From contig JANRLI010000011.1 in NCBI GenBank assembly GCA_033762625.1, forward strand, positions 62,001-126,000: 64,000 bases of DNA, given 5' to 3'. The translations under genes and the position numbers were made by a program. Numbering within the stretch: the stretch's first letter is position 1; each line of letters starts with the position of its first letter. Of this stretch, positions 18,955 to 34,403 are shown one piece after another. The DNA is from Alphaproteobacteria bacterium (GTDB lineage Bacteria > Pseudomonadota > Alphaproteobacteria > UBA9219 > RGZA01). Under the pieces are notes generated by a model, which was not told the origin of the DNA, did not search any database, and saw nothing but the letters and a program-made list of their open reading frames with translations.

Positions 18955-18969
18955 ATGAGAGGACTAACG

Positions 18970-20154
18970 ATGGAATGGCCAGCTTTTCTAACGCGTAAGC
19001 CAAAAATGCGCAGCGTTGCCGCACAAAAAACATCCGCATCAGGGCCGGTGGTTGCATATTCGCATGTTGGCAAACCGCGCTGGACTCCGCGCCGCTATGA
19101 TGCATTGGCCGAAGAAGGCTATCGCAAGAATGTGGTCGCATGGCGCTGTATTTCCGAAGTTGCCAGAGCATCCGCCAGCATACCGTGGCTGCTTTATGAT
19201 ACGGACCATCAGGAATTGGAAGATCATCCGCTTAAAGAGCTGCTGAAACATCCAAACCCTTTGCAAGGTACCGCGCAGTTTTTAGAAAGCGTGTTCAGCT
19301 ATTACCAGATTTCGGGGAATGTGTATATCGAAGCGATACGTCCGAATGAGGGCAGCGCGCCAGTTGAGCTATATGTGCTGCGCCCAGACCGTATGCGTGT
19401 GATACCGGGCGAAAGCGGTTTGCCGCTTGGGTATGAATATCAGGTTAGCGGGCGCACGGTGCGCTGGGCCGCAGATCCGTTCACGGGCGCGAGCAATATT
19501 TTGCATTGGAAGGCGTTTCATCCATTGGATGACTGGTATGGCATGGCGCCATTGGAAGCTGCGATGACTGCAATTGACCAGCATAATGCCGCTAGCGCAT
19601 GGAACCAAGCGTTACTGAACCAAGCAGCGCGACCATCGGGCGCGTTGATTTATTCACCCAAGGATGGCCCAACGCAATTAAGTGATGAGCAATTCCGGCG
19701 GTTGAAAGAAGAGCTGGAAGAACATTATCAAACACCGCGCAACGCCGGACGCCCGCTTATTCTGGAGGGTGGGCTGGATTGGAAGGAAATGGGATTAACG
19801 CCAAAGGATATGGATTGGCTGGCAGGGCGTAAACGTGCCGCACAAGATATTGCATTGGCATTTGGTGTGCCCGACCAGTTGATCAGCATTTCGGAATCGC
19901 AAACCTATGCCAACATGGCAGAAGCTCGATTAGCTTTATATGAAGAAACCGTTTTGCCATTGGTGCAGCAATTCAGAGGTGAGTTGAACCGTTGGCTCAC
20001 GCCCATGTTCGATGACACGTTGCGACTTGAAATCGATGCAGACGAAATCCCGGCGCTCGCCGCGCGGCGTGACATGGTGTGGGATAAAATCGGCAAAGCT
20101 GATTTCCTTTCGCGCAATGAAAAACGCCAAGCCGTTGGTTATCCGCCAGAATGA
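18970..20154 (+). CDS. GTA portal protein (gp3-like, HK97 family)
   Basis: Dodecameric portal through which DNA enters the head. 394 residues. Family signatures are NPLQGTAQFLESVFSYYQISGNVYIEAIR, LYVLRPDRMRVIPG, LHWKAFHPLDDWYGMAPLEAAM and the C-terminal DIALAFGVPDQLI. The ATG at 18970 has a strong GAGAGGA site 6 nt upstream; an earlier ATG at 18955 adjoins the terminase stop but lacks a good ribosome site. Follows the terminase directly. Confidence 0.93.
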   Translation: MEWPAFLTRKPKMRSVAAQKTSASGPVVAYSHVGKPRWTPRRYDALAEEGYRKNVVAWRCISEVARASASIPWLLYDTDHQELEDHPLKELLKHPNPLQGTAQFLESVFSYYQISGNVYIEAIRPNEGSAPVELYVLRPDRMRVIPGESGLPLGYEYQVSGRTVRWAADPFTGASNILHWKAFHPLDDWYGMAPLEAAMTAIDQHNAASAWNQALLNQAARPSGALIYSPKDGPTQLSDEQFRRLKEELEEHYQTPRNAGRPLILEGGLDWKEMGLTPKDMDWLAGRKRAAQDIALAFGVPDQLISISESQTYANMAEARLALYEETVLPLVQQFRGELNRWLTPMFDDTLRLEIDADEIPALAARRDMVWDKIGKADFLSRNEKRQAVGYPPE

Positions 20155-20155
20155 T

Positions 20156-20815
20156 TTAATCGATCACGAATGGTTTTAATTTTGCATCGGTAATGCGCGG
20201 TGTGTCAGCGGGTGCAGGTTTGTGAGGTGTTACATCACGAGGTTCAGTTGATGTTGGGTGCAGATCATCGATCACTAAGGTGCTGATGCCGAATTTGCGG
20301 CGGAGCATATCTTTTGAATCGGTGCGCATCATCCAGGACATAACTGGAGAAATGACATAAACAGTACCGATCAACGCAAAATCGACAAAATTACGTACAG
20401 ATGGGTAGTCCGAGTTCGCCAAGTGATTCTGTTGGATCATAAGCGGCGTTAAAATCATCAACCATGCGGTGGTTGTATTCATCAGGCCAACCTTCAGGCC
20501 TGCTTCTGCGGCGATCCGTGCTGCATCGAGTTTAGGGATACCTGGTATCTTTGACATTTGACGGTATTGATCAACGGCATCGAGAACAGTGGCTGCAAAA
20601 GGAGATGCGGTAATCACCGGAGTAATGAATTTGCTGAATGCAATCGCACCAGATGATGGAAGACAGGTTTCAAGTGCAGCGCATCCCAATACTGCAACTC
20701 CGCCGATTAAACCATAAGCGGTTGCGCGAAATGCATACGTCCGCGATGCCCAAAAGCGTGCGATGCGGCTTTTGTATTTATGTTGTTGCGGCTCATGTTC
20801 GATGATCTGTGACAT
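20156..20815 (-). CDS. Minus-strand membrane protein of unknown function inside the GTA cluster
   Basis: 219 residues from MSQIIEHEPQQHK. A basic N-terminus is followed by hydrophobic segments at about 27-48 (AYGLIGGVAVLGCAALETC), about 60-75, about 118-133 (TAWLMILTPLMI) and about 147-162 (FALIGTVYVISPVMSWMM), then a polar Pro/Thr-rich tail. I do not recognise it. It lies convergent with the portal gene and divergent from the protease gene, exactly where canonical GTAs have only a small gene or nothing. It breaks the polarity of an otherwise plus-strand cluster, so it is probably an insertion, perhaps a moron-type gene. Confidence 0.65.
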   Translation of the reverse strand: MSQIIEHEPQQHKYKSRIARFWASRTYAFRATAYGLIGGVAVLGCAALETCLPSSGAIAFSKFITPVITASPFAATVLDAVDQYRQMSKIPGIPKLDAARIAAEAGLKVGLMNTTTAWLMILTPLMIQQNHLANSDYPSVRNFVDFALIGTVYVISPVMSWMMRTDSKDMLRRKFGISTLVIDDLHPTSTEPRDVTPHKPAPADTPRITDAKLKPFVID

Positions 20816-20903
20816 GTGCCGATTATATCGAAAAATGTGTGCGGTTATACTTTCATGGCACAAGAATTTTGAAAATTAACCATACTGTGAATGTGGATGA
20901 AGC

Positions 20904-21455
20904 ATGAAAACAAAATATATGACTGCGCTGTTTGAAGTAAAAGAACTGGGCAGTGAAGGATTTATCGCGGGTTACGCATCGGTCTTTGGTGAGGTTGATG
21001 CGCAAAGTGATGTTGTGGCAAAGGGTGCGTTTACGCGCAGTCTTTCCAGATACAAACAAAGCAAAAGCAACCCTGCCATGCTGTGGATGCATGATACCGG
21101 TGAACCCATCGGCGTGTGGACAAGCGTGAATGAAGATGCCCGCGGCCTTCGCGTTGAAGGAAAGCTGGCGGTTAAAACGCAGCACGGGGCAGAAGCCTAT
21201 GAACTTTTAAAAATTGGTGCGGTGAGCGGGCTTTCCATCGGCTATTCGGCGATTAAAAGCGTGAAGGATAGTAAAACAAAAATCCGCACACTGACGGAAG
21301 TAGAACTTTATGAAATATCGCTGGTTACATTCCCCGCCAATTCATTGGCGCGCGTGCATACCGTGAAAGAACATACGGATAACCAATTAAACCATAACGA
21401 GTTTCAGGCCATCGTTATGCGCTTACGAAACACGGCCAACGCTTTAAAAAACTAA
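20904..21455 (+). CDS. GTA prohead protease (gp4-like, HK97 family)
   Basis: Serine protease that matures the capsid. 183 residues. U35 family signatures are FIAGYASVFGEVDAQSDVVAKGAF, the catalytic-His region PAMLWMHDTGEPIG and the Ser region GAVSGLSIGYSAIKS, then VELYEISLVTFPAN. The ATG at 20904 follows a GGATGAAGC stretch; an in-frame ATG lies at 20919. Directly upstream of the capsid gene, as expected. Confidence 0.93.
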   Translation: MKTKYMTALFEVKELGSEGFIAGYASVFGEVDAQSDVVAKGAFTRSLSRYKQSKSNPAMLWMHDTGEPIGVWTSVNEDARGLRVEGKLAVKTQHGAEAYELLKIGAVSGLSIGYSAIKSVKDSKTKIRTLTEVELYEISLVTFPANSLARVHTVKEHTDNQLNHNEFQAIVMRLRNTANALKN

Positions 21456-21477
21456 ACCAAAACTAATGGAGACATGG

Positions 21478-22695
21478 ATGACTGACTTGATGGAAATCAA
21501 GGCGGCAACGGGTGAGCTTGCTCATGCGTTTGAAGCCTTTAAAGAAGCAAATGATGAACGACTGGCATCGCTGGAACGCAAGCGCGGCGATGTGGTATTG
21601 GAAGAAAAAGTTGATCGCATCAATAGCGATGTAACCAAACTGCAAGATACGGTTGCGGCATTTAAAACCGCATTCAAACGCCCCGGTAAAGCGGGCGAGA
21701 TGGTTCAAGAACCATCCGAACACAAGCGCGCATTTTTGCGTTATGTCACGAAGGGCGCGGAGCAGGATCTATCCGGTCTTGAAGCCAAGGCGATGAGTGT
21801 CATTTCAGACCCTGATGGTGGTTATCTGGTTCCTTCGGAAATGTCAGACCGAATTATCACGCGCCAGTTTGATACAACCCCAATGCGCCAATTGGCAACC
21901 GTGATGACCGTATCATCGGATGCCGTTGAAATGCTGCGTGATACGGATGACAGCGAAGCATTTTGGGTCAGCGAGCTGGATAGCCGCGTTGATTCAGAAC
22001 CCGGTCAATTTGGCCGTATCCGCATTTCGGTGCATGAATTACATGCGCAGCCAAAAGCAACGCAAAAACTGCTCGATGATGCAAATGTGAATGTTGAAGA
22101 GTGGATTATCGGAAAAATTGCGGCACGCTTTGCACGCCGTGAAAACGCAGCTTTTGTCACCGGTGATGGTGTGGCTCAACCACGCGGTTTCACCAGTTAT
22201 TCGGTTGCGGCAACTGCCGATGCAACCCGCCCATGGGGTACGTTTGAATATTTTCCATCTGGCGCAGCGGCCGCATTTGCTTCAACCGCCCCAGCTGATG
22301 CGATTATCAGCCTGATGCATAAATTAAAGGCAGGGTATTTGCCAAACGCATCATGGCTGATGCCGCGCGCGGTATCCGAACTCATCCGTAAGATGAAGGG
22401 CACAACCAATGACAGCTATTTGTGGCAGCCAAGCTTGCAAATCGGCACACCGGCAACCTTGCTGGGCTTCCCGGTTTATCTTGGGGAAGACATGCCAGCC
22501 GTGGCTGCGAGCAGCTTGTCACTGGCATTTGGTAACTTTGCTGAAGCCTACACCATTGTTGACCGTATTGGCATGCGTATTTTGCGTGATCCATTTACCT
22601 CCGCACCATTTGTTAAGTTCCGTTGCACCAAGCGTGTTGGCGGCGATGTTACCAATTTTGATGCGTTGAAATTCCTGCGCTTCAGCGTTTCGTAA
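21478..22695 (+). CDS. GTA major capsid protein (gp5-like, HK97 fold)
   Basis: 405-residue capsid precursor. The N-terminal ~80 residues are helical scaffold-like delta domain (MTDLMEIKAATGELAHAFEAFKEANDERLASLERK). The shell domain follows, starting with SVISDPDGGYLVPSEMSDRII, with RENAAFVTGDGVAQPRGF and SWLMPRAVSELIRKMK as HK97-capsid landmarks. The ATG at 21478 has GGAG 6 nt upstream; 21466 is an alternative. A ~59-bp repeat copy begins at its stop codon. Confidence 0.95.
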   Translation: MTDLMEIKAATGELAHAFEAFKEANDERLASLERKRGDVVLEEKVDRINSDVTKLQDTVAAFKTAFKRPGKAGEMVQEPSEHKRAFLRYVTKGAEQDLSGLEAKAMSVISDPDGGYLVPSEMSDRIITRQFDTTPMRQLATVMTVSSDAVEMLRDTDDSEAFWVSELDSRVDSEPGQFGRIRISVHELHAQPKATQKLLDDANVNVEEWIIGKIAARFARRENAAFVTGDGVAQPRGFTSYSVAATADATRPWGTFEYFPSGAAAAFASTAPADAIISLMHKLKAGYLPNASWLMPRAVSELIRKMKGTTNDSYLWQPSLQIGTPATLLGFPVYLGEDMPAVAASSLSLAFGNFAEAYTIVDRIGMRILRDPFTSAPFVKFRCTKRVGGDVTNFDALKFLRFSVS

Positions 22696-22753
22696 AATAG
22701 CTCAAATGCTGCATGGCATGCCCGCATCAGTGGGCATGCCAGCGGTCGCTGAC
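22695..22753 (+). repeat. Intergenic ~59-bp repeat, copy A
   Basis: Begins AATAGCTCAAA at the capsid stop and ends with the hairpin CAGCG-GT-CGCTG. This copy also has a perfect 9-bp stem GGCATGCCC/GGGCATGCC with an 8-nt loop in the middle. It shares its ends with copies at 25430 and 25688. Confidence 0.8.
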
Positions 22754-22783
22754 ATAACTATTATTCAAATTAGGAGATAACTC

Positions 22784-23176
22784 ATGGCTTTAAAAGATCT
22801 TGAAAACAGAATTAGCGTTGCGCAAAGCCTTGCGCCTGCGGTGCGTAACGCAACAGCAAATGGCACGGGCATTGATTTGCAGGGCTTTAATTCGGCAATG
22901 GTGGTGTTCAATTTTGGTGCATGGACAGATGGAACACATACACCCTCACTGCAACATTCAACCGATAACTCTACCTATGTGACCTGCGACAGTAATTCGA
23001 TGAACGGCACATTTGTTGCTGTATCAAGCGGCGCGGGTGCAAACACCATTCAGAAAATCGGTTATACGGGCGGGTATCGTTACATCCGCGCGGTGATGAC
23101 TGTTTCGGGCGCAACAACAGGCGCTGCTGCAAATGCGGTGGTGCTACGCAGCCATCCGGCGGTAGGTCCGGTTTAA
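22784..23176 (+). CDS. Probable head decoration/stabilisation-like protein after the capsid gene
   Basis: 130 residues starting MALKDLENRISVAQSLAPAV, followed by a Gly/Thr/Ser-rich beta-strand-type region (GIDLQGFNSAMVVFNFGAWTDGTHTPSLQ) and YRYIRAVMTVSGATTGAAAN. Proteins of this look are found next to capsid genes in tailed phages. A role on the capsid surface is inferred from position and the beta-rich composition. It is not part of the canonical Rhodobacter GTA set. It has a good AGGAGA ribosome site and is followed by an intrinsic terminator. Confidence 0.6.
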   Translation: MALKDLENRISVAQSLAPAVRNATANGTGIDLQGFNSAMVVFNFGAWTDGTHTPSLQHSTDNSTYVTCDSNSMNGTFVAVSSGAGANTIQKIGYTGGYRYIRAVMTVSGATTGAAANAVVLRSHPAVGPV

Positions 23177-23222
23177 TTAGCGTATAATAAGTAATCCCAA
23201 GCTAACGTAGTACTAACTCAAG

Positions 23223-23255
23223 GGCAGGTTTGCAGCGATGCAGCCTGCCTTTTTC
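23223..23255 (+). terminator. Intrinsic terminator inside the GTA cluster
   Basis: GGCAGG (23223-23228) pairs with CCTGCC (23244-23249), with an inner TGCA/TGCA pairing around GCGA, followed by six T (23250-23255). It lies between the capsid/decoration block and the connector genes. Confidence 0.75.
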
Positions 23256-23272
23256 TTTTAAGCAGGTTTTTC

Positions 23273-23926
23273 ATGACAGCATTGGTCCGAACCACGCCGC
23301 CAGCAAGCGAGCCGATAAGTCTTTCGGAAGCTAAAGCGCATGTGCGCGTGAGCATTAGTGATGATGACGCATTGATAACCAATTTGATTACAGCAACACG
23401 GATGATATGCGAAGAGTTCACTGGCCGCGCACTGATAACGCAAGGATGGCGGTTATGGCTTGATACATTTCCAGGCGACCGCTTGGCGTGGTGGGATGGA
23501 ACACGCGAAGGCGCGGCATCGAAACTAACGGTGAAGCGGTTTATTCTCATGCCGCGCGCGCCATTGCAAAGCATTAGCGCCGTAAATGTATATGCCGACG
23601 ATGATAGCAGCGTTGTTTTTTCGCCCACGCTATATTTTGTAGATAGCAATGCCGAGCCAGGGCGGTTGGCGTTGCGCAATAACGCATCATGGCCAGTGCC
23701 ACAACGCGCAAGCAACGGAATTAGCGTTGATTTTACCGCGGGATATGGCGCGGCAAGCGCGGTACCGCAGGCATTGAAGCAAGGCATGCTCGCGCACATT
23801 GCACAGCTTTATGAACATCGCGGCGAAGGGCTGCGTTTAAATGGGGATGCACTTTCGGTGAAGGCTTTGCCGGATATTGTTCAGGCGCTTTACCAGCCAT
23901 TCCGCGTACAGCGTCTGCGTTACTAG
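23273..23926 (+). CDS. GTA head-tail connector (gp6-like)
   Basis: 217 residues. The N-terminus PPASEPISLSEAKAHVRVSISDDDALITNLITATRMICEEFTGRAL is the hallmark of gp6/phiE125 gp8-type adaptors that bind below the portal. The C-terminus ends with VPQALKQGMLAHIAQLYEHRGEG. It probably forms the ring between portal and head-closure protein. Its expression must read through the upstream terminator or use an unseen promoter. Confidence 0.88.
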   Translation: MTALVRTTPPASEPISLSEAKAHVRVSISDDDALITNLITATRMICEEFTGRALITQGWRLWLDTFPGDRLAWWDGTREGAASKLTVKRFILMPRAPLQSISAVNVYADDDSSVVFSPTLYFVDSNAEPGRLALRNNASWPVPQRASNGISVDFTAGYGAASAVPQALKQGMLAHIAQLYEHRGEGLRLNGDALSVKALPDIVQALYQPFRVQRLRY

Positions 23927-23937
23927 GGGAATTTCAG

Positions 23938-24264
23938 ATGTTCGGAATCGGAACTTACCGTCAGCGCTTATATGTGCAGCAGGAAAACCCGGTTGCGGAT
24001 ACTGGCGGCGGCAATGCCATGGCGTGGACCACCATCAATACCATTTGGGCATCGATTGAACCTGTTAGCGGCAATGAACAAATGATTGCAGGCAAGCCAA
24101 GCGGCACGGTTACACATCGCATTCATACGCGTTATGACGCAACCATCACACCCGCGATGCGGCTTATGCTGGGTAGCCGCATCTATAATATCCGTTCCAT
24201 CAAAAATATTCAGGAACGCAACCGCGTATTGGAAATTCTTGCCGAAGAAGGCGTCGCGACATGA
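23938..24264 (+). CDS. GTA head closure protein (gp7-like)
   Basis: 108-residue head-tail joining protein. The N-terminus YRQRLYVQQENPVADTGGGNAMAWTTINTIWASIEPVSGNEQ and the middle THRIHTRYDATITPAMRLMLGSRIYNIRSIKNIQERNRVLEILAEE match the SPP1 gp16-like head-closure family. Position between connector and tail-terminator genes agrees. Its stop overlaps the next start by 4 nt (ATGA). Confidence 0.88.
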   Translation: MFGIGTYRQRLYVQQENPVADTGGGNAMAWTTINTIWASIEPVSGNEQMIAGKPSGTVTHRIHTRYDATITPAMRLMLGSRIYNIRSIKNIQERNRVLEILAEEGVAT

Positions 24265-24668
24265 CCACATCACTTTTTGCAGTGCAGGAAGCTGTGTATG
24301 GTGCACTGACATCCAGCACAGCACTGCAAGCATTACTGGGTAATCCGGTTCGATTATATGATGTGATACCACCTGCTGCGTTGTTTCCATATGCGACGCT
24401 TGGCGATGTATTGATAAAAGAATTTGATACAAAAGACCAGACCGGATTTGAGCAATCACTCATTCTGCATGTGTGGTCGCGTTACCGCGGGCGCAAGGAA
24501 CTCAAGCAAATCATCCAGACCATTTATGATGTGTTGCATAACAGTGCACTGAGTATAACCGGCGCAAATTATGTATCTTGCCAGTTTCAATCCGCCAGCA
24601 CGCTTCAGGAAAATGATGGCCTGACGCTTCATGGCATCCTTCGTTACCGAATAATTGTTCAGCATTAA
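24261..24668 (+). CDS. GTA tail terminator-type protein (gp8-like, DUF3168)
   Basis: 135 residues. The DUF3168 pattern is visible: AVYGALTSSTALQALLGNPVRLYDVIPPAALFPYATLGD at the N-terminus and LILHVWSRYRGRKELKQIIQTIYDVLHN in the middle. In GTAs and siphophages this protein caps the tail tube at the head interface. Coupled to gp7 by a 4-nt overlap. Confidence 0.88.
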   Translation: MTTSLFAVQEAVYGALTSSTALQALLGNPVRLYDVIPPAALFPYATLGDVLIKEFDTKDQTGFEQSLILHVWSRYRGRKELKQIIQTIYDVLHNSALSITGANYVSCQFQSASTLQENDGLTLHGILRYRIIVQH

Positions 24669-24683
24669 AACCAGGAGAAGAAT

Positions 24684-25097
24684 ATGACCCAAAACGCCCG
24701 AACCGGACGGACCTTGCTGATTGCCGATGGCACAGGAGTTGGCGCAACCGTGATTGCTGCGATGCGATCGACGAATTTTACTATTCAAGGCAAGGCCGTT
24801 GATGTCACCGATAAAAGCAGCACCAACCAATACCGAGAATTATTGGCAGGTGCTGGCGTGGTTAGCGTAACCGTTGGAGCCAAGGGATTGCTGAGCGGTT
24901 CAACACAAACGCAAACACTTGTCACAAGGGCGATTAGCCGCAGCGTAGATAGCTACCGGATTACCTTTGATAACGGCGATGTATTGGAAGGACCATTCCA
25001 GTTGGTACAGTTTGAAGCAGCGGGTGATTATAATAACGAGCAAACCTATCAGCTTAGTTTTGAATCCGCTGGCGCGCTCACATTTACTACGGTGTAA
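24684..25097 (+). CDS. GTA major tail tube protein (gp9-like, TP901-1 family)
   Basis: 137 residues. It starts MTQNARTGRTLLIADGTG and continues ATVIAAMRSTNFTIQGKAVDVTDKSS; ending EQTYQLSFESAGALTFTTV. This is the tail-tube family pattern of stacked hexameric rings. There is a clear AGGAGAAG ribosome site. Very short for a tube protein but typical for GTA gp9. Confidence 0.9.
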   Translation: MTQNARTGRTLLIADGTGVGATVIAAMRSTNFTIQGKAVDVTDKSSTNQYRELLAGAGVVSVTVGAKGLLSGSTQTQTLVTRAISRSVDSYRITFDNGDVLEGPFQLVQFEAAGDYNNEQTYQLSFESAGALTFTTV

Positions 25098-25098
25098 T

Positions 25099-25431
25099 AT
25101 GACGGGTGTAGCGATGCGTGAATATAATCCGGCGCGCGGCGATGTGCTGATCAGTCTTTTGGAATATGAATTCATCATGCGCCCCAGTTTTCATGCGATT
25201 GCATTGCTGGAAGAGCATTTCAAACGGGGTATAATCGATATTGCCCGCGATTACCATAATAGCAAAATTTCCCATGCCGGTGATTTTGTAGCCATTGTGC
25301 AGGCAGGATTAAAAGGTGCGGCGCAAGACGTGCCTGCTGATTTGCCAGACAGGATTATTGGCACGGGGTTAACGCAAATTATCGAACCATGCGGGAAGTT
25401 TCTAGCCCACGCTTGTGGAATAAAATGTTAA
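25099..25431 (+). CDS. GTA gp10-like tail assembly chaperone
   Basis: 110 residues. The pattern YNPARGDVLISLLEYEFIMRPSFHAIALLEEHFKRGIIDIA, followed by HAGDFVAIVQAGLKGAA, matches the GTA gp10 family (phage tail assembly chaperone type). It starts 1 nt after the gp9 stop; a later in-frame ATG at 25114 is also possible. The frame runs upstream into gp9, but that part is not coding. A repeat copy begins at its stop. Confidence 0.85.
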   Translation: MTGVAMREYNPARGDVLISLLEYEFIMRPSFHAIALLEEHFKRGIIDIARDYHNSKISHAGDFVAIVQAGLKGAAQDVPADLPDRIIGTGLTQIIEPCGKFLAHACGIKC

Positions 25432-25488
25432 TAGCTCAAACGCCGCATGGCTTCGCTCGCATTGGCTCGCGGGCCAGCAATCGCTGTC
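25430..25488 (+). repeat. Intergenic ~59-bp repeat, copy B
   Basis: AATAGCTCAAACGCCGCA start, two direct GCTCGC units 4 nt apart in the middle and a CAGC-AATC-GCTG terminal hairpin. It lies between gp10 and gp10.1. Reading it as coding would give gp10.1 an artificial 15-residue N-terminus. Confidence 0.82.
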
Positions 25489-25491
25489 CTT

Positions 25492-25692
25492 ATGGATGAG
25501 TTCACAAAAAATGCGATGGGTACAGCCTGTGGCGTAATGGGCTGGGCACCAGACGTGTTTTGGCAAGCAACGCCATTTGATTTATTAAACGCGTGGCATG
25601 GGTATGAAACATTTCATGGCCTGAAACCCGCGAATGATTTGACGCATGCTGACGTGCGCGAGTTAAGAAAAATATTAAACGACTTAAAATAG
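25492..25692 (+). CDS. GTA gp10.1-like tail assembly chaperone
   Basis: 66 residues from MDEFTKNAM. The core GVMGWAPDVFWQATPFDLLNAWHGY matches the small phage tail assembly chaperone family (GTA gp10.1), in which a Trp-Pro-Asp-x-Phe-Trp core is typical. The ATG at 25492 is chosen because the frame upstream (from 25447) is made of repeat copy B. The ribosome site is weak. The TAG stop lies inside the start of repeat copy C. Confidence 0.78.
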   Translation: MDEFTKNAMGTACGVMGWAPDVFWQATPFDLLNAWHGYETFHGLKPANDLTHADVRELRKILNDLK

Positions 25693-25747
25693 CTCAAACG
25701 CCGCAAGGCTTTGCTCGCATAAGCTCGCGGGCCAGCGGTCGCTGCCT
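25688..25747 (+). repeat. Intergenic ~59-bp repeat, copy C
   Basis: Nearly identical to copy B: AATAGCTCAAACGCCGCA, GCTCGC-ATAA-GCTCGC, then CAGCG-GT-CGCTG. It lies between gp10.1 and gp12, where canonical GTAs carry gp11. Confidence 0.82.
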
Positions 25748-25760
25748 TTAAGGATAAAAA

Positions 25761-26387
25761 ATGGCCTTTGATGAAGTTCAGTTTCCGTTACGCGTAGGTT
25801 TTGGCAGTTCCGGCGGGCCAGCCTTTTCAACCGAAATCGTTACGATTGATGGCGGGTATGAACGTCGCAACCAGAACTGGAGCCAGGCGCGCAGACATTT
25901 TGATGCATCAACAGGTTTACGTAATGCAAGCGATGTTGCAACGCTAATTACATTCTTCCATGCGCGCGCGGGTCGTGCACGGGGTTTTCGTGTGAAGGAC
26001 TGGAGCGATTATACAAGCGCAGCAGATGGCCTTTCCGCCAGTGCATTTAATGATCAGAGTATCGGCACGGGTAATGGCACACTTACGCAATTTCAACTCA
26101 AGAAAAACTATATCAGTGCCAGTATTACCCATGCACGCGATATACGAAAACCTGTTTCAGGCAGCGTGACCATTGGCGTAAATGGTGTGCAGGCATTAAG
26201 CGGGTGGAGCGTGGATACTGCAACCGGTATTGTCACCTTTGCGACGGCGCCGATTGCTGCTGCCGCGATTACCGCTGGCTTTACCTTTGATGTTCCTGTG
26301 CGGTTTGATACCGACCAGCTACGTTTAAGCGCGCAGGACTTTCAGCAATATACATCCAGTATTCCGTTGGTGGAGGTGCGGGTATGA
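25761..26387 (+). CDS. GTA distal tail protein (gp12-like, DUF2460)
   Basis: 208 residues. The DUF2460 pattern is clear: FDEVQFPLRVGFGSSGGPAFSTEIVTIDGGYERRNQNWSQARRHFDAS, then ATLITFFHARAGRARGFRVKDWSDY and the C-terminal PVRFDTDQLRLSAQDF. In the GTA particle this forms the distal-tail ring that connects tube and baseplate. Overlaps the next gene by 4 nt. Confidence 0.92.
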   Translation: MAFDEVQFPLRVGFGSSGGPAFSTEIVTIDGGYERRNQNWSQARRHFDASTGLRNASDVATLITFFHARAGRARGFRVKDWSDYTSAADGLSASAFNDQSIGTGNGTLTQFQLKKNYISASITHARDIRKPVSGSVTIGVNGVQALSGWSVDTATGIVTFATAPIAAAAITAGFTFDVPVRFDTDQLRLSAQDFQQYTSSIPLVEVRV

Positions 26388-27229
26388 AGACTGTCTCACC
26401 TGAATTGCAAACGCATCTATCAAAAGAACTTTCAACACTTGCAACGCTGGTTAAAATTACACGCAAAGATAATGTGGTATTGGGGTTCACAACCACGGAT
26501 AAAGATTTAGTGATCGGTGGCGTTACCTATAAGGCCGATGGCGCCTTTCAGGCGAGCGCCATTCAGAATCGCGCTGCGCTTTCAACAGATAATCTGGATA
26601 TTATTGGTTTGCTGGACAGCGCAAGCATCAGTGACGCGGATTTGCGCGCAGGGTTATATGATCATGCACGTATCGATGTGTATATGTGCAATTGGGCGGA
26701 TTTAACCCAAGGCGTGATGCAGTTGCGCCGTGGATGGCTTGGTGAAGTAAAGCTGATCGGCGGCAAATATCAGGCTGAATTACGTGGATTTCTTGATTTA
26801 TTGCAACGGCCATTTGGCAAAACCTATTCGCCCGAATGCCGTCACGGATTTGGGGATACAAGTTGTAAAATAAATTTGGCGAGTTTTACAGTAACGGGCA
26901 GCGTGAGCAGCGTCGTTGACGCGTCACAGTTTACCGATGCAACGCGCAGTGAAGCCAATAATATATTTAACTATGGATTGCTGACGTGGACATCGGGCGC
27001 AAATACCGGCCTTTCGATGGAGGTAAAAAGTTTTATAGCAAAGCAATTCACGTTATGGCTGCCCATGCCCTATCCCATAACGGTCGGCAACAGCTATTCG
27101 GTTTATAATGGATGCGATAAACGGTTTGCAACTTGCCAAAGTATATTCAACAACGCGGTAAATTTTGGCGGCTTTCCGCATTTGCCAGGGGTTGACCGTA
27201 CATTGAATTACCCCGATGCACGAAGTTAG
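26384..27229 (+). CDS. GTA baseplate hub protein (gp13-like, DUF2163)
   Basis: 281 residues. DUF2163 features are LATLVKITRKDNVVLGFTTTDKDLVIGGVTYKADGAF, AGLYDHARIDVYMCNW and the C-terminal cysteine-rich block YSPECRHGFGDTSCK ... CDKRFATCQSIFNNAVNFGGFPHLPG. In RcGTA a matching Cys cluster binds an iron-sulfur centre in the hub; the spaced cysteines here are consistent with that, by inference. The next plus-strand gene is displaced by a minus-strand lipoprotein gene. Confidence 0.92.
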   Translation: MKTVSPELQTHLSKELSTLATLVKITRKDNVVLGFTTTDKDLVIGGVTYKADGAFQASAIQNRAALSTDNLDIIGLLDSASISDADLRAGLYDHARIDVYMCNWADLTQGVMQLRRGWLGEVKLIGGKYQAELRGFLDLLQRPFGKTYSPECRHGFGDTSCKINLASFTVTGSVSSVVDASQFTDATRSEANNIFNYGLLTWTSGANTGLSMEVKSFIAKQFTLWLPMPYPITVGNSYSVYNGCDKRFATCQSIFNNAVNFGGFPHLPGVDRTLNYPDARS

Positions 27230-27633
27230 CGCAAATCATGCGTCACGTTTTGACGGCCCGTGGACGTGAAGAATAAACATTCGTGCTGATCACCGCGGTA
27301 ATCCACATGATGGACTTTTTTATCGAGCATCCATAAACGCAGTTCGCAATTGTATTGAGAACGCTTGCTTTTGCCCAAGAGGTAAGACGTTTTGCGGTTG
27401 TATTGCATAAGCTTGAAACCGTTATCCAGTGAAATGGAACGGTTGGGCGGACCGTAAAGCGTGATTAATTGGTCGCGGGTCAGGCCAACAAGACGGCGAT
27501 TAAGTTCAATATCCGTTTCGGTGTTGCCATTCTGTAGCTCACCTTCGCCGCCATAGCTGTGCAATCGTGAACCAATGCATCCGCTGATGGATAGTAATAA
27601 GAGGCAGCAACACATACGAAGAAAGATATGCAT
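27226..27633 (-). CDS. Small lipoprotein with BamE/SmpA-like pattern, inserted between gp13 and gp11
   Basis: 135 residues from MHIFLRMCCCLLLLSISGC, a lipoprotein signal with lipobox SISGC. A mature domain follows: LNRRLVGLTRDQLITLYGPPNRSISLDNGFKLMQYNR and YNCELRLWMLDKKVHHVDYRG, resembling the short BamE/OmlA fold (GLT-x-x-Q-x-x-x-x-YGPP). Its ATG at 27633 has AAAGG 7 nt upstream on the minus strand and shares bases with the plus-strand ATG at 27628. It is convergent with gp13 (4-nt overlap). The role in the GTA is unknown; it may be an unrelated insertion. Confidence 0.7.
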   Translation of the reverse strand: MHIFLRMCCCLLLLSISGCIGSRLHSYGGEGELQNGNTETDIELNRRLVGLTRDQLITLYGPPNRSISLDNGFKLMQYNRKTSYLLGKSKRSQYNCELRLWMLDKKVHHVDYRGDQHECLFFTSTGRQNVTHDLR

Positions 27634-27636
27634 CCG

Positions 27637-28269
27637 ATGACCTTTGACGCGAATCAACAAGAAATACAAGAAGCAACGCAGAAGACAGACGATGGCTTTA
27701 AGCGCGCAGGAAAATCATCCGATGAACTTACCGCTAAACTTGATAAACTCAAACAAGAATTTTCTAAAACATCTGATGTTATCAAGGATAGCTTTGCGAA
27801 ATCGTTAGGCGATGCGATTAAGGGCAGCGACACATTTTCAAACGCGTTTGATAAAATCCGCAAATCACTGGAAGATTTTACTATTAAAGCCGCTGTTATC
27901 AATCCGCTCAGCGATATTCTGTTTGGCGGTGATACCCCTCGTCTTGATAGCATCACAAAGATCGGCGATGTTTTGCCGACTAGAGGCACTGGCGGTTTGC
28001 TTGGTGATTTGACCAATGGCATCGCCGATTTATTCGGTGCGCGTGCGTTTGGCGGGCCAGTTGCTGCGGGGCAACCTTATCTGGTTGGGGAGCGCGGGCC
28101 AGAATTGTTTGTGCCGCAAACATCAGGACGGATAAACCCAGATGTTGGTAGCGCCGTAAGCATTGTGATGAACATTACCACAAATGACGCTGCAAGTTTT
28201 CAAAGTAGCCAGACACAAATTGCCGCATCGATGATTGATGCAGCACGCAGAGCACAGCGGATTAGATAA
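27637..28269 (+). CDS. GTA short tape-measure protein (gp11-like), displaced
   Basis: 210 residues. The N-terminal half is a helical heptad-like region (TAKLDKLKQEFSKTSDVIKDSFAKSLGDAI). The C-terminal half has the tape-measure end pattern AFGGPVAAGQPYLVGERGPELFVP and IVMNITTNDAASFQSSQTQIAASMIDAARRAQRIR, which closely follows GTA gp11 C-termini. In canonical GTAs gp11 lies between gp10.1 and gp12; here it lies after gp13. The start could be 27628 (overlapping the divergent lipoprotein start) or 27637. Neither has a strong ribosome site. Confidence 0.85.
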   Translation: MTFDANQQEIQEATQKTDDGFKRAGKSSDELTAKLDKLKQEFSKTSDVIKDSFAKSLGDAIKGSDTFSNAFDKIRKSLEDFTIKAAVINPLSDILFGGDTPRLDSITKIGDVLPTRGTGGLLGDLTNGIADLFGARAFGGPVAAGQPYLVGERGPELFVPQTSGRINPDVGSAVSIVMNITTNDAASFQSSQTQIAASMIDAARRAQRIR

Positions 28270-28274
28270 TCAAC

Positions 28275-28694
28275 ATGAATGATACCAAGCAAACACTGGT
28301 AACTGCCGCCAGAGCATGTATCGGCACGCCGTTTTATCACCAAGGGCGCATCGCGGGCATCGGGCTTGATTGTATTGGACTTGTCATCCATGCAGTAAAG
28401 CAAATCGGTATACCCGTGAATGACCAAACCGATTATGGCCGCGAGCCGGAGGGTGAGCGGCTTCACGCCGCGCTTATTGCGCATGGGTTTGAACAGGTGA
28501 ATGATATTACTGCGGGTGATGTATTGCTATTTCGCTTTAATGGCGAAGCGCAACATGTGGGATTGGCCGTTTCACATGATGCAATGGTCCATGCCTATGC
28601 ACCCATCGGCCGTGTGGTTGAAACGGGGCTGGGCGAGACATGGCAACGGCGTATTGCAGGCATATATCGCGCCGCTAATATTGAGGAATTATAA
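28275..28694 (+). CDS. GTA NlpC/P60 cysteine peptidase (gp14-like)
   Basis: 139 residues. Catalytic Cys is in GIGLDCIGLVIHA near residue 36, His in EAQHVGLAVSHDAMVHAY. The fold is that of cell-wall endopeptidases carried on the tail tip to open peptidoglycan during DNA entry. 0 nt separates it from the megatron gene. Size and position match RcGTA gp14. Confidence 0.92.
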   Translation: MNDTKQTLVTAARACIGTPFYHQGRIAGIGLDCIGLVIHAVKQIGIPVNDQTDYGREPEGERLHAALIAHGFEQVNDITAGDVLLFRFNGEAQHVGLAVSHDAMVHAYAPIGRVVETGLGETWQRRIAGIYRAANIEEL

Positions 28695-31600
28695 ATGGCA
28701 TCGCTTGTTTTAACGATTGGCGGGTCAGCGCTGGGCAACGCGCTATTGCCGGGTATTGGCGGCGCGTTGCTGGGTGGGATTGGCGCGTATGTTGGCGGGC
28801 AGATCGATAATGCGGTATTTGGAAGCAGTCATATTAAAGGCCCGCGTCTTGAAAATCTGAAAATCCAAGATTCTACCTATGGCAAATCTATTCCCGTGGT
28901 GTATGGCAATGCGCGTATTGCAGGAAATGTAATTTGGACAAGTGATTTAATTGAAACATTATCGAGCGATCAGGTAGGCGGGAAGGGCGGCAGCACCAGC
29001 GCATCGGTGCAGCGCGCCAGCTATTCGGTGGATTGCGCAATTGCAATTGGTATGGGGATGGCCGGTGCCAGCATTGGCAACATCCGCACCATTTGGGCAG
29101 ATAGTAAAATTATTTACAGCGATGGCAGATGGAATGCGAATGTCATCGCAGATGCCGAATTTTATACCGGCACGGAAACACAAAACCCGTCCCCCTTGAT
29201 GGAAGGGTATTTGGGTGTTGGTAACGTACCCGCGTATCGCGGCGTTGCGTATGCGGTGTTTCATCGCTTGCAGCTTGCCAATTTTGGCAACCGACTGCCG
29301 AATATGACGTTTGAATGCTATCCCGCTGATGCCAGCGTTGCGCCGCGCTTTCTTGGCGCAACAAATTCTGCCTTACTATCGCGTCCGCAAACCGCAGCCA
29401 GTTATAATGCGATGCCAGCTATTCCGCTTGCGCGCGCAGGTTCCAGCATTACGCGCATGGTGATGGGCGGCGTTATCCAAACCGGAACATCCTTTCAATT
29501 CGCTGCGGTTGAAATGGATTTGACAGGCAATGTGCCCGTTGAAATCAACCGCAGCTTAAGTGCCAGCATTACCCGCAGCAGCGATATGGTGGATGTAAGC
29601 TGGGCGTTAAGCCCGGATGGAACCAGCATCGCATTTTATATGCAGCATTCAGATGCCTTTAATCCGGCGACGATTGCGATTTATAAAATTGCCTCGCGTA
29701 GCTTTGGAACTCTTTTGAGCGATAATCTTGGCTATTCCAGCGCGCTTAATCAAATCGCATGGCTTGATGAACAGCGCTTCGTGTTACAGGATGTGGTTTC
29801 AGGTGAATGCGGCGTTCGTGTGTATGCGATGGCCGGCACAGCGGTAGTATCGCTGGGATTTTTTGGGGTATGGGGTGTTGGCAGCAGTGCAACCCGTTAT
29901 CCATTGCCTTTTGCGCAATTTTGTAAATTATCTGGCGGGCTTTGCTTCTTGATGGGTGATGTGGCTGTCACGCCGACATCGCTTTATACGCGCACACTGG
30001 CTTGGCAGAATAATGGTTTGGTGGTTGGTAGTGAAATTCTGTTGAGTAACACGTTGGCAGGTTTTAGTTCGATCAATTGCGCATTATTGCCGCTTAGTGC
30101 GAATGAATTTGTGCTTGCGCGCCTAGGCACATCTGATATTCGTTTGCTTAGCTTTACTGCCAATTTCAATACATCGATTGTAACGCGTGGCTGGACAAGC
30201 ATAGCAATATCGCCAAGCGGTGATTTATCAATTTCTATCCGAGATGGACGCATCTGTTTTCTGCACGAAGCGTTTAGCACGGTTTCATATCGGTACGGCG
30301 AAATCGCTGTAACAGCGACGGGATTTAGTTTAACAACGGCCAGCACACTGGTAACGGGAAGTTACAGCGGTACGTTAAATAACTTTAGTTTGTATCCGGT
30401 TGATGCGACGCGGTTTGTGGTGCAGGCAACAGGGGGTTCCGGCATCATTTCCCGCATTGCGTTGATTGAGCGTGCAGCAGCTGAGCAGAACCTGAGTGCT
30501 ATCGTCGCGGATATTTTAACGCGCGCAGGATATGTGGGTAGTGATTATGATGTCAGCGCGCTTGGCAATTCCAGTGTACAGGGATATGTGGTGGATGATG
30601 TTTCATCCGCGAGAGCTGCACTTGAACCATTGCAAGCCTATCAGCCTTTTGATCTGATTGAAACGGATGGCATTTTAAAAGCAAAAATATATAGCGCAGC
30701 AATTAATATAACCGTGCCGGAAAGCGAAGTTCGCGCATCACCAGAAAAGCAAGACCAACCACCTGCATTACAGACAACGCGCGGGCAGGAACTGGATTTA
30801 CCGCGTGAGGTAAGTGTGGATTACCTTGACCCCGCGCTTGATTTCCAGCGCGGGTCGCAACGTGCACGCCGTATTGCGAGTAATGCCATGGCAGTTGAAA
30901 CCATGCGCCTGCCCGTTGTGTGCCCAGCGCAAAAAGCGAAACAGATTGCTGAAAGCCAGCTTTACCGGCGATGGGCAGAACGTAGCGAGCATGAATTGTA
31001 TATCAATCGTAATTACGCGCCGTTGGATACCGGTGATGTGATTAGCTTTTCAGGGCAGGCGCTGCGCATCACGCACATCAATCAGCAGGGCGGGGTCTTA
31101 AAAACGCAGGCTGTTCCCATTTCCGATTTGGTGTTGAATAGTTCGGCAATTGCGGATGGCGGCAAGGGTGTAAGCCGCGATATGCTATCGCTGATTTCCA
31201 GTACGCTTTGTTTGATCGATGCCGGGTTGCTTCAGGCTGAAGATGATCAGCCAGGATTTTATGTGGCCATGTCCGGCTCTGCCGCATGGCCTGGCGCAAG
31301 TCTGATGCGTTCAACCGATGGTAGTAATTACGCGGTGCAAGACAGTTTCAGTTTGCCTGCAACCATTGGTTTGGCAACAACGGTCTTACCGCCGCGCCCA
31401 GTGCATTATATGGACAGAGCAAGCACCGTAACGGTTGCCTTACTTCGTGGCAATCTTTCCAGTTGCAGTAGCGCGGATTTATTTAATGGTAGTAATGCGG
31501 CATTGCTTGGCGATGAAATCATCCAGTTTCAGAATGCCAATTTGAACGCAGATGGCACTGTTACGCTTTCAAACTTGCTGCGTGGCCGCAAGGGGAGTGA

Positions 31601-32108
31601 AGGTGCAACATCAACCCACATTACGGGGGAGCGTTTTGTCTTACTTCAACCCGCAACCGTGCATTTCTTGCCATTGAACAGCAGCGATCGTGGCCGAACA
31701 TTTTATTACCGCGCTGCTTCCATCGGACAGGATGTGCATGATGTGGCAGACACTGTGTTTGTACCGCAGATAAACAATCTAAAGCCCCTTGCACCGTGTC
31801 ATGTGACGGCAAACCGTAATAGTAGCCTGGATATAACGCTGGCATGGAAACGCCGCGCCCGCAGCAATAGCGAATGGATTGATTTAATCGACGTACCGCT
31901 TGATGAGACAAGCGAGTTATATGATGTTGAAATTATGAATGGCAGCACTGTGGTTAGAAGCTTTCTAAACCAGCCAAGCCCGATGCTAACTTATACAGCC
32001 GCGCAGCAGATTGCCGATTTTGGTGCGGCGCAAAGCACCGTCACCATCAACATATATCAGCTGAGTGCGCGTTTTGGACGCGGCAATCCAGCAATTGCCA
32101 CAGTTTAA
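28695..32108 (+). CDS. GTA tail-tip megatron/host-specificity protein (gp15-like) without the TIM-barrel
   Basis: 1137 residues. The N-terminal glycine-rich hydrophobic start (GGSALGNALLPGIGGALLGGIGAYVGG) and the following IPVVYGNARIAGNVIWTSDL block are the hallmark of GTA gp15. A phage-tail_3-like region lies at about 595-800 (ADILTRAGYVGSDYDVSAL ... PREVSVDYLDPALDFQRG) and a tail fibronectin-like region near the C-terminus. Between about 230 and 590, where the RcGTA protein carries a glycosidase-like TIM barrel, I see beta-rich repeats with WALSPDGTSIAFY, IAWLDEQRFVLQD and similar blade-like strands instead. A beta-propeller is inferred. Confidence 0.85.
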   Translation: MASLVLTIGGSALGNALLPGIGGALLGGIGAYVGGQIDNAVFGSSHIKGPRLENLKIQDSTYGKSIPVVYGNARIAGNVIWTSDLIETLSSDQVGGKGGSTSASVQRASYSVDCAIAIGMGMAGASIGNIRTIWADSKIIYSDGRWNANVIADAEFYTGTETQNPSPLMEGYLGVGNVPAYRGVAYAVFHRLQLANFGNRLPNMTFECYPADASVAPRFLGATNSALLSRPQTAASYNAMPAIPLARAGSSITRMVMGGVIQTGTSFQFAAVEMDLTGNVPVEINRSLSASITRSSDMVDVSWALSPDGTSIAFYMQHSDAFNPATIAIYKIASRSFGTLLSDNLGYSSALNQIAWLDEQRFVLQDVVSGECGVRVYAMAGTAVVSLGFFGVWGVGSSATRYPLPFAQFCKLSGGLCFLMGDVAVTPTSLYTRTLAWQNNGLVVGSEILLSNTLAGFSSINCALLPLSANEFVLARLGTSDIRLLSFTANFNTSIVTRGWTSIAISPSGDLSISIRDGRICFLHEAFSTVSYRYGEIAVTATGFSLTTASTLVTGSYSGTLNNFSLYPVDATRFVVQATGGSGIISRIALIERAAAEQNLSAIVADILTRAGYVGSDYDVSALGNSSVQGYVVDDVSSARAALEPLQAYQPFDLIETDGILKAKIYSAAINITVPESEVRASPEKQDQPPALQTTRGQELDLPREVSVDYLDPALDFQRGSQRARRIASNAMAVETMRLPVVCPAQKAKQIAESQLYRRWAERSEHELYINRNYAPLDTGDVISFSGQALRITHINQQGGVLKTQAVPISDLVLNSSAIADGGKGVSRDMLSLISSTLCLIDAGLLQAEDDQPGFYVAMSGSAAWPGASLMRSTDGSNYAVQDSFSLPATIGLATTVLPPRPVHYMDRASTVTVALLRGNLSSCSSADLFNGSNAALLGDEIIQFQNANLNADGTVTLSNLLRGRKGSEGATSTHITGERFVLLQPATVHFLPLNSSDRGRTFYYRAASIGQDVHDVADTVFVPQINNLKPLAPCHVTANRNSSLDITLAWKRRARSNSEWIDLIDVPLDETSELYDVEIMNGSTVVRSFLNQPSPMLTYTAAQQIADFGAAQSTVTINIYQLSARFGRGNPAIATV

Positions 32109-32127: not shown

Positions 32128-33276
32128 ATGGCCAACACACCGCGCCTGAACATGCCTTATCTAATCGCAGGACAAGCGCAAAAGGAAATTTCACATAATG
32201 ATGCGCTGAACGATATGGATAGTTTGGCCCAGATATCGGTTATCAATAAAACAACCGCTACGCCGCCCGCTACGCCTGCTGATGGGGATAGTTATATCAT
32301 TGCCGCAAGCCCGACAGGTGTGTGGGCTGGGAATGCCAATGCGATTGCATCGTATTATTCAGGATGGCGCATAAAAACACCAAAAACCGGCTGGTTTGCC
32401 TATGTGCAAGCTGAAGCTGTGTTCTATCTGTTCGATGGTAGCACGTGGAATGTGTATAAGGGTGTTGTGCCATTAGGTTCAGCTGCTGCACCGTCCTATA
32501 GTTTTATCGGGGATAGTGATACCGGCATTTACAGCCCGGGTGCAAATCAGGTCGCTATTGCGACGGGCGGAGTGCAACGTATGTCGGTGGATGCATCTGG
32601 CAATACCAATGTTGCAGGAGTTTTGGCGACATCCAATCATACCATTACCTCGAATAGTTCCACAGCTTTGATTGTTGGCCCTAATGGCGCCACTAATCCC
32701 GTATTGCAGATCGATGATTCTACAGTTTCACAAAATGCAGGACTGAAACTGGTGGGTGGCACGACGGGTACGGCTCCGCAATTGCAAGTTACATCGCCGG
32801 ATACCAATCAGGCATTAGTATTTTTGACCAAGGGAAATTCGCCATTCCGTTTTTCGAATAACTCAGCCGCAGTTGCAACGCCAAACACCGACCCGACTGT
32901 CAAAATCCGAAATCTTTCGGCCACTACGAATAATGCCAGTGTATTACAGTTTGAAAATACCAGTGGGCAAGCGGTTGCGCAAATTGATGGCGTGAATGAA
33001 AGCCACAGCGTGAAAACCGGTTCGATGGTATTTTATACCGGTATTTCTGGAACGCTGACACAAGTAATGAAGCTGGACAGCTCGGCGAATGTAATTTTCG
33101 GAACCGCAGCTATTTCAACCAGCGCAACGAATGGTTTTGTTTATATCCCCACCTGTGCGGGTGCGCCTACGGGTGTTCCAACATCTTACACAGGGCGCGT
33201 CCCGATGGTTTACGACACAACAAACAACAAACTATGCATCTACAACGGCGCATGGAAAACCGTAACGCTGACTTAA
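32128..33276 (+). CDS. DUF2793-containing tail fibre or head-spike protein
   Basis: 382 residues. The N-terminal DUF2793 domain is at about 1-115 (PRLNMPYLIAGQAQKEISHNDAL, TPADGDSYIIAASPTGVWAGNA, AVFYLFDGSTWNVYKG). It is followed by fibre-like repeats (SFIGDSDTGIYSPGANQVAIATGGVQRMSVDASGNT) and a C-terminal VPMVYDTTNNKLCIYNGAW. In Rhodobacter, GTA head spikes GhsA/GhsB have a DUF2793 part, so a receptor-binding role is plausible. Good GGAG site 7 nt before the start. Confidence 0.82.
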   Translation: MANTPRLNMPYLIAGQAQKEISHNDALNDMDSLAQISVINKTTATPPATPADGDSYIIAASPTGVWAGNANAIASYYSGWRIKTPKTGWFAYVQAEAVFYLFDGSTWNVYKGVVPLGSAAAPSYSFIGDSDTGIYSPGANQVAIATGGVQRMSVDASGNTNVAGVLATSNHTITSNSSTALIVGPNGATNPVLQIDDSTVSQNAGLKLVGGTTGTAPQLQVTSPDTNQALVFLTKGNSPFRFSNNSAAVATPNTDPTVKIRNLSATTNNASVLQFENTSGQAVAQIDGVNESHSVKTGSMVFYTGISGTLTQVMKLDSSANVIFGTAAISTSATNGFVYIPTCAGAPTGVPTSYTGRVPMVYDTTNNKLCIYNGAWKTVTLT

Positions 33277-33287
33277 AGGTGAGTGAT

Positions 33288-33560
33288 ATGACACCAAGGC
33301 GCTTTTCAATTGATAAACGTGTTCCGCTGGCGCTTATGTTCACAGTGCTGTTGCAATTGGGCGGGGTGGTATGGTGGGCATCCTTTACCCAGGCGCAGGA
33401 TAATTTTCGCGATGTACGGTTGCATGAATTGGAGATGCGCCATAACAAAGATATAGAAAAACAGGACCATATCCTTGAGCGCCTGACACGGCTTGAAGCG
33501 CACAGTGATATGCAATTGGAATTATTGCAGCGCGTTGATGCATTTATCCGGAAGAAATAA
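33288..33560 (+). CDS. Small single-pass membrane protein with C-terminal coiled coil
   Basis: 90 residues: a basic N-terminus (TPRRFSIDKR), one TM segment at about 12-33 (LALMFTVLLQLGGVVWWASF) and a charged coiled-coil tail (LHELEMRHNKDIEKQDHILERLTRLEAHSDMQLELLQRV). It is positioned between the fibre gene and the endolysin, with a 1-nt overlap to the latter. The architecture is common for accessory lysis proteins in phages; that role is inferred. The start at 33288 has AGG 8 nt upstream. Confidence 0.7.
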   Translation: MTPRRFSIDKRVPLALMFTVLLQLGGVVWWASFTQAQDNFRDVRLHELEMRHNKDIEKQDHILERLTRLEAHSDMQLELLQRVDAFIRKK

Positions 33561-34006
33561 TGATGCGCACGATGAACGATGCCGGATTTGCATTGCTTAA
33601 AGCACATGAGGGGCTAAAGCTTCAGGCTTATTTGTGTCCTGGCGGTGTTTTGACGATTGGGTATGGGCATACGGGCGACGTAAAGCCGTTGCAACAAATT
33701 ACCATCGAGGAAGCGGAACGCTTGCTACAAAAGGATGTTGCGCGGTTTGAGCGCTGCATTAATCATTCTGTGCTTATTCCGCTTACATCAAACCAGTTTT
33801 CAGCATTGGTATGCTTTGCGTTTAATATCGGGGTGGAGGCATTTTTACGCTCCACTCTTCTCAATTTACTCAATCGCGGTTGGTATGAACAAGTGCCAGC
33901 ACAATTAATGCGTTGGACGATGTCACGCGGTGTGGAATTGCCAGGGCTGATCACGCGCCGAAAGGATGAAGCGGCGTTATGGAATAAGGAAGATGCAGAT
34001 GTTTGA
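33560..34006 (+). CDS. Phage-type lysozyme endolysin (GH24)
   Basis: 148 residues. The GH24 catalytic region is FALLKAHEGLKLQAYLCPGGVLTIGYGHT, with the catalytic Glu in HEG, then Cys and Thr at the positions of the P21/P22-type triad. SNQFSALVCFAFNIGVEAF is the family helix pair. No N-terminal signal anchor is visible, so export depends on the holin. Cleaves the murein glycan strand to release particles. Confidence 0.92.
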   Translation: MMRTMNDAGFALLKAHEGLKLQAYLCPGGVLTIGYGHTGDVKPLQQITIEEAERLLQKDVARFERCINHSVLIPLTSNQFSALVCFAFNIGVEAFLRSTLLNLLNRGWYEQVPAQLMRWTMSRGVELPGLITRRKDEAALWNKEDADV

Positions 34007-34403
34007 AATTATATTTCCGTTTATTTCCAAGCTAATTGACCGGATTATTCCGGATGAAACAACGCGCGCCGCCGCCAAACTGGAACTGATGAAGTCAGAA
34101 AACCAGCAGGTGTTAAACGAAATGCAGGCAAGCCTTTCTGCCATATTGGTTGAAGGCGGCAGTAGTGATAAATGGACAAGCCGCGCGCGCCCTAGCTTTC
34201 TTTATGTGATGTATGGCGTGATTGTATTATGCTTTGTTGGCGGGATTATTGGCATCTGGTATCCCGCAGCAACCACGCAGGCAGCAGCCAATATCAACGC
34301 CTTGCTGCGTGCCTTGCCGCAGGATTTATATAATTTGTTTGCGATGGGTTATCTGGGGTATGCGGGTGCCAGAAGTTTTGACAAATGGCATAAGACTAAA
34401 TGA
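33999..34403 (+). CDS. GTA-type holin (3-TM superfamily)
   Basis: 134 residues from MFEIIFPFISKLIDRIIPD. The central TSRARPSFLYVMYGVIVLCFVGGIIG followed by LLRALPQDLYNLFAMGYLGYAGAR is the pattern of the GTA_holin_3TM family. There are two or three membrane segments. The ATG at 33999 has AAGGA 8 nt upstream; 33966 and 33993 are alternatives. It overlaps the endolysin gene by 8 nt. Confidence 0.88.
   Translation: MFEIIFPFISKLIDRIIPDETTRAAAKLELMKSENQQVLNEMQASLSAILVEGGSSDKWTSRARPSFLYVMYGVIVLCFVGGIIGIWYPAATTQAAANINALLRALPQDLYNLFAMGYLGYAGARSFDKWHKTK

Follow-up and report, generated by a model that had tools for sequence, protein, structure and literature searches.

A displaced tape measure gene in an RcGTA-type head-tail gene cluster of an alphaproteobacterial family

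The window, meaning the whole analyzed stretch of 64,000 nucleotides (G000:C11:62001-126000, from a genome of 2.2 Mb in 26 contigs), contains one RcGTA-type head-tail cluster at 17659-34403 in which the tape measure gene gp11 is displaced. The tail genes follow the order gp10.1-gp12-gp13-antisense lipoprotein gene-gp11-gp14-gp15, whereas RcGTA carries gp11 between gp10.1 and gp12. Sequence comparisons indicate, with a probability that we set at roughly 0.85, that the cluster was inherited vertically, that gp11 moved in the ancestor of the family to which the window genome belongs (f1), and that it most likely still acts as a tape measure. In this ancestor, gp11 would have left the site between gp10.1 and gp12 for one between gp13 and gp14, behind the antisense lipoprotein gene. 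Tape measure genes adjoin the tail chaperone genes near-universally and almost always precede the gene for the distal tail protein. The conserved exception in f1 shows that the order chaperone-tape measure-distal tail protein is not essential, and the displaced gp11 serves to mark the lineage of a GTA group not yet described.

Gene content and classification of the cluster

Homologs of the RcGTA head-tail genes (terminase, portal, protease, capsid, and gp6 to gp15) were found clustered together with Pfam, NCBIfam, and home-made profiles. The features are listed by position.

17659..25097, plus strand: head/neck part, terminase to gp9
Start 17659, plus strand: terminase
Start 18955, plus strand: portal, HK97-type
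Start 20904, plus strand: protease, HK97-type
Start 21466, plus strand: capsid, HK97-type
Start 23273, plus strand: gp6, connector
Start 23938, plus strand: gp7
Start 24261, plus strand: gp8
Start 24684, plus strand: gp9, tail tube
25099..25431, plus strand: gp10, tail assembly chaperone-like (Phage_TAC_11/GTA-gp10 and home-made profile)
25430..25497, no strand: copy of a dispersed intergenic repeat, gp10/gp10.1 (repeat search and genome-wide copies)
25492..25692, plus strand: gp10.1 (Phage_TAC_6, Pfam PF09550, E 7.6e-7)
25688..25755, no strand: second repeat copy, taking up the gp10.1/gp12 gap where gp11 canonically lies (87% identical to 25430-25497)
25761..26387, plus strand: gp12, distal tail protein (TIGR02217, E 3.9e-74; DUF2460)
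26384..27229, plus strand: gp13, baseplate hub (TIGR02218, E 6.3e-73)
27226..27633, minus strand: antisense small lipoprotein gene (lipobox LSIS-GC; conserved in G004 and G002)
27637..28269, plus strand: gp11, displaced tape measure protein, 210 aa (NF058675, tree, dN/dS, predicted fold)
28275..28694, plus strand: gp14, NlpC/P60 cell-wall peptidase (TIGR02219, E 6.6e-18, under cut-off; NLPC_P60)
28695..32108, plus strand: gp15, megatron baseplate protein (NF048004, E 1.6e-160, under cut-off; Rcc01698_C)
Start 32128, plus strand: DUF2793 protein (part of 32128..34403)
Start 33560, plus strand: phage lysozyme (part of 32128..34403)
Start 33966, plus strand: GTA_holin_3TM, GTA-type holin (part of 32128..34403)

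The Phage_TAC_11/GTA-gp10 match is slightly below the Pfam cut-off and was seen on a longer ORF (24967-25431). The profile matches place gp10.1, gp12, and gp13 consecutively, with gp11 later and then gp14 and gp15, which is the order that an earlier note on this DNA had proposed; its statement that the tail genes are intact also stands, and in f1 none of the listed head, tail, baseplate, or lysis ORFs is disrupted. Annotated genes in 15963-36017 are structural, lysis, or housekeeping genes (ORFs 17285-17719 and 20156-20863, both on the minus strand, were left out). A 130-aa gene lies 3' of the capsid gene (22784-23176; 98% identity between G000 and G004, which represents a second species in the genus) and is kept in nearly all clusters of the taxonomic order; its product has no Pfam match and is perhaps a capsid decoration protein.

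A PheA (prephenate dehydratase) or DUF6456 gene borders the cluster in members of f1 and of its sister families f2 and f3. Chromosomal neighbors are common to the families, and the cluster tree is consistent with the host family labels. Tree and neighborhood together indicate that this RcGTA-type cluster is inherited vertically at a conserved chromosomal place.

Relative to RcGTA and RcGTA-like type I GTAs (Rhodogtaviriformidae and related clusters), the window cluster is alike in g2-g15 by profile, in the HK97-type head, in gp14 and the megatron-type gp15, and in single chromosomal copy and vertical inheritance. Beyond the place of gp11, it differs from RcGTA in the inserted antisense lipoprotein gene, the extra ~130-aa gene behind the capsid gene, the DUF2793, lysozyme, and holin genes directly downstream, and the scores of gp11, gp14, and gp15, which are below the NCBI cut-offs. 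Lambda-like siphophage tail modules have the same protein roles (chaperone, tape measure, distal tail protein, and hub) in the order of canonical GTA clusters, whereas the adjacency of chaperone and tape measure is broken in the window. Since the canonical order is usual in RcGTA-like clusters and no functional requirement, we file the window cluster as a variant on the known RcGTA-type plan. This variant is undescribed in the openly licensed literature searched, which yielded no description of a displaced gp11 or of tube loss in RcGTA-like clusters.

The displaced gp11 and its surroundings

The protein encoded at 27637 matches the NF058675 model ("RcGTA_tape") at positions 7-219 of 220 (E 5e-14, 52.6 bits), and its earlier assignment to gp11 is thereby borne out. 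This score, together with those in G004 and in G002, from another genus of f1 (49-54 bits), and in the outgroup cluster L125 (61 bits), is far below the NCBI equivalog cut-off of 220 bits; with a full-length match at a sub-cut-off score, the protein is thus homologous to the curated equivalog and outside it. Several phage tape-measure PHROGs also match. The earlier description of this gp11 as short does not hold, as 210 aa is normal for RcGTA-type gp11 (profile 220 aa). A second, canonical gp11 was looked for by whole-genome NF058675 search of G000 and not found; the search returned one convincing gp11 (E 8.7e-13; next match 0.03).

AlphaFold predicts a helix over residues 3-96 with a short break, strands at 140-166, and a helix at 185-209 (mean pLDDT 68, moderate confidence). 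RcGTA gp11 consists of a 113-residue helix, 83 residues of strands and loops, and a 20-residue C-terminal helix, and forms a trimer in the tube (PMC7296036). The window gp11 is similar in size (~210 aa) and, with moderate confidence, in its predicted layout. A PDB sequence search with gp11 gave weak matches only, to serpins and tape-measure C-termini. Between G000 and G004 (dS about 1), dN/dS was 0.12 for gp11, 0.15 for the lipoprotein gene, and 0.02-0.10 for the other cluster genes. Judged by this ratio, the displaced gp11 is under purifying selection, and the rearrangement appears to be tolerated, as had been supposed. Within the genus, gp11 is the least conserved tail protein (72% identity; 42% between genera), and this low conservation could also reflect relaxed constraint.

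The gene that adjoins gp11 is the inserted minus-strand lipoprotein gene named in the earlier note; its product is lipoprotein-like (MHIFLRMCCCLLLLSISGC...). The start codons of this gene and gp11 stand head to head, separated by 3 nt in G000 and in G004 and with a 2-nt overlap in G002, so that each upstream region lies inside the coding sequence of the other gene. The pair is kept across two genera, between which the lipoproteins are 27% identical. The lipoprotein, which has no Pfam match, was modeled by AlphaFold with a pLDDT of about 87-96 over most of residues 41-130, and its best structural match, a weak one, is BamE; an outer-membrane accessory or self-protection factor is a possible role, offered as a guess.

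Lying between gp13 and gp11, the minus-strand lipoprotein gene could break co-transcription. A promoter and terminator scan of 25-29 kb gave no excess over shuffled sequences and no prominent promoter-like site. gp11 is most likely expressed either by read-through of the long tail transcript via gp13 across the lipoprotein gene or from an internal promoter of the latter. For assembly, co-transcription would then be enough, with no need for a place beside the chaperone genes gp10 and gp10.1; with both chaperone genes intact, chaperoning of gp11 can occur in trans. gp11 would then most likely keep its usual job, in which trimers fill the tube of gp9 and gp12, set the number of rings, and plug the channel. 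We infer these routes of expression, this function, and the repeat-mediated move considered below from sequence.

The gap between gp10.1 and gp12, the canonical site of gp11, measures only 68 nt and consists of the dispersed intergenic repeat, so that gp12 directly follows gp10.1, as first read. The repeat is also present at about ten other genomic places. It occurs close to the vacated site in both G000 and G004, and in G002 a 70-nt repeat is common to the vacated site and the stretch directly 3' of the displaced gp11. The move may have gone through recombination at such repeats; the case is circumstantial, as they are scattered genome-wide. A structural RNA role for the copies at 25430 and 25688 was considered and dropped because their RNA fold is not unusual. 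A diverged copy at 22693-22760, directly 3' of the capsid gene, forms a strong hairpin (z -5.0), unlike the two copies flanking gp10.1.

Additional genes are inserted between gp13 and gp11 in G002. Between gp13 and the lipoprotein gene (L078:10745-13609), this genome encodes a protein that combines a QPRVPAGNPDGGQWTDGG linker with a borderline match to the colicin E5 RNase domain (E 2e-5). Several small ORFs, related to one another, come next and could encode immunity proteins. Another protein family, with members of ~67-95 aa (MKW.ADI...GYYLYVWENG...), occurs at scattered places in GTA-like clusters of the taxonomic order (L083:7322-11564, L095:3063-3338, and L078:12102-13609); its members sometimes adjoin PRVPAGNPGGGQWT proteins and perhaps belong to toxin/immunity cassettes within the clusters.

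Recurrence and origin of the displaced order

About 58 clusters of the same taxonomic order and class were annotated with profiles built from the window proteins. The displaced order, with the reversed lipoprotein gene between gp13 and gp11, recurred in G004 and G002, and was thus found in every f1 genome whose contig spans the region; the distance from gp12 to gp11 is 1240 nt in G000 and 1246 nt in G004. Two further f1 contigs end too early: that of G001 within gp13 (its gp10.1 and gp12 overlap, leaving no room for gp11 there) and that of G003 behind gp9. Among 34 loci, 30 had a gp11-model match directly 5' of gp12, the exceptions being the three f1 loci and the outgroup L125 (genome G132). 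Recurrence in a second species and another genus shows that the order is neither an assembly error nor strain-specific, and since f1 is a well-supported clade, the order marks a lineage. The earlier reading of a tolerated, lineage-marking rearrangement is supported by this synteny comparison of three displaced and 30 canonical loci.

In L125, the closest relative outside the taxonomic order in both gp11 and the cluster, gp11 is displaced too, but it lies between gp8 and gp9, and this is a separate move, independent of f1. At L125:4749-8173, gp11 stands behind several inserted, paralogous small membrane-protein-like genes. An IMG/VR scan with gp11 returned 80 loci, and gp11 was upstream in all 11 where gp12 or gp13 was also seen; a scan of IMG/VR viral contigs with gp13 found no relative. 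In related phages, g11-15 are reported to be consecutive or relatively conserved (PMC11409702), which makes the f1 exception more notable.

The cluster tree, computed with FastTree from seven concatenated cluster proteins, has the topology (L125,(f1,(f2,f3))) with support of 0.98-1.0 at these nodes and agrees with the genome families. In the gp11 tree, also proposed earlier, f1 (0.99) groups with L125 (0.92), and phage tape measures of ~850 aa from the same taxonomic order stand apart (0.999). These trees bear on the improbable alternative that the original gp11 disappeared and that a tape measure of foreign, phage origin was inserted behind gp13. The site does accept foreign DNA (the lipoprotein gene and, in G002, the colicin-E5-like toxin and repeated small genes), and gp11 diverges faster than its neighbors. 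However, the gp11 tree matches the cluster tree, which argues that gp11 moved within the descent of its own cluster and was not replaced from a phage, and its size and layout are GTA-like, in contrast to the tape measures of ~700-870 aa in phage clusters elsewhere in the taxonomic order. An artefact of assembly or binning has a negligible probability: the genomes are probably metagenome-assembled drafts (26 contigs here; the G004 record is titled MAG), but three separately assembled genomes of two genera have the same order, each on one contig.

The direction of the move can be read from the sister families, where a small ORF of ~93-135 aa occupies the canonical site before gp12. Aligned as a group, the f2/f3 ORFs hit the far C-terminal end of the gp11 profile with an hhalign score of 28.6; 200 shuffles of the columns gave 14.8 at most, and ten other GTA profiles scored 8-12. 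In f2, the copies of G006 and G008 are also recognized by the gp11 HMM over the helix region (E 1e-7 and 2e-5, respectively), whereas most single f3 copies are non-significant alone, so the f3 call depends on the group alignment. These remnants lack the GGPV...VGERGPELFVP block. Their presence indicates that the canonical site was occupied in the ancestor and that the move belongs to f1. It is unlikely, then, that displacement was ancestral to the taxonomic order and outgroup and that the small ORFs are unrelated to gp11. The nearest outgroup, with gp11 before gp9, also lacks a canonical copy, but gp11 positions differ between L125 and f1, the f2/f3 ORFs occupy precisely the canonical site, their score against gp11 is well above shuffles, and the single best match reaches the very C-terminus.

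A decaying prophage remnant with a functionless displaced gp11 is very unlikely, even though gp9, gp10, gp10.1, and most of gp11 are gone from the sister families and gene-transfer activity is known for none of this group. Against decay stand the intact f1 ORFs, the cluster-wide dN/dS of 0.02-0.15 at dS about 1, the chromosomal neighbors that persist through three families, and the genes kept in f3, for which dN is also well below dS.

Eroded gp11 and missing tail tube genes in sister families

In f2 and f3, gp11 is either eroded at the canonical site or missing, and the head and baseplate genes are intact. Eroded or absent gp11 was recorded for L080, L083, L088, L091, L093, L095, L097, L099, L100, and L101, most of which are also without gp9 or the chaperones and keep intact head, baseplate, and lysis genes. 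A family search for the tail tube (PF06199) detected it in f1 and G006 only, and a direct protein search added G007; the family was absent from all f3 genomes (0/24). In G026, G031, and G032, gp6, gp7, and gp12 lie within 22 nt of each other, a packing that leaves no space for tube, terminator, and tape genes. The gp11 move thus stands as a single event within a wider remodeling of the GTA-like tail in this lineage, and gp11 erosion with tail tube loss in the sister families is the more far-reaching event in the taxonomic order.

A tentative reading, to which we give somewhat less than an even chance, is that a siphovirus-like GTA in this taxonomic order is becoming a short-tailed particle by stages, with the f1 displacement as an early sign. 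gp11 would lose its beta block at the outset (in f2 and in some of f3), loss of gp9, which encodes the tube, and of the chaperones would come next (G008 and all f3 clusters seen), and gp8 and gp11 would vanish last (G026, G031, and G032, with gp6, gp7, and gp12 adjacent), while selection would continue to act on head, baseplate, and lysis genes. On this reading, the displaced gp11 of f1 would reflect early relaxed constraint and might be a channel plug or needle more than a ruler. The RcGTA stopper, terminator, tube, and distal tail rings have one fold and are stacked (PMC7296036), which makes a tail with fewer ring kinds structurally conceivable. With their shrinking gp11 and lost tube, the clusters of this taxonomic order form a natural series on the interdependence of tape length, tube, and neck proteins, and the series bears on the possible evolution of short-tailed particles from long-tailed ancestors.

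In G006 (L080) and G007 (L082), gp7 and gp8 were not detected and gp9 lies directly behind gp6, the reverse of the pattern in other members, which keep gp7 and gp8 without gp9.
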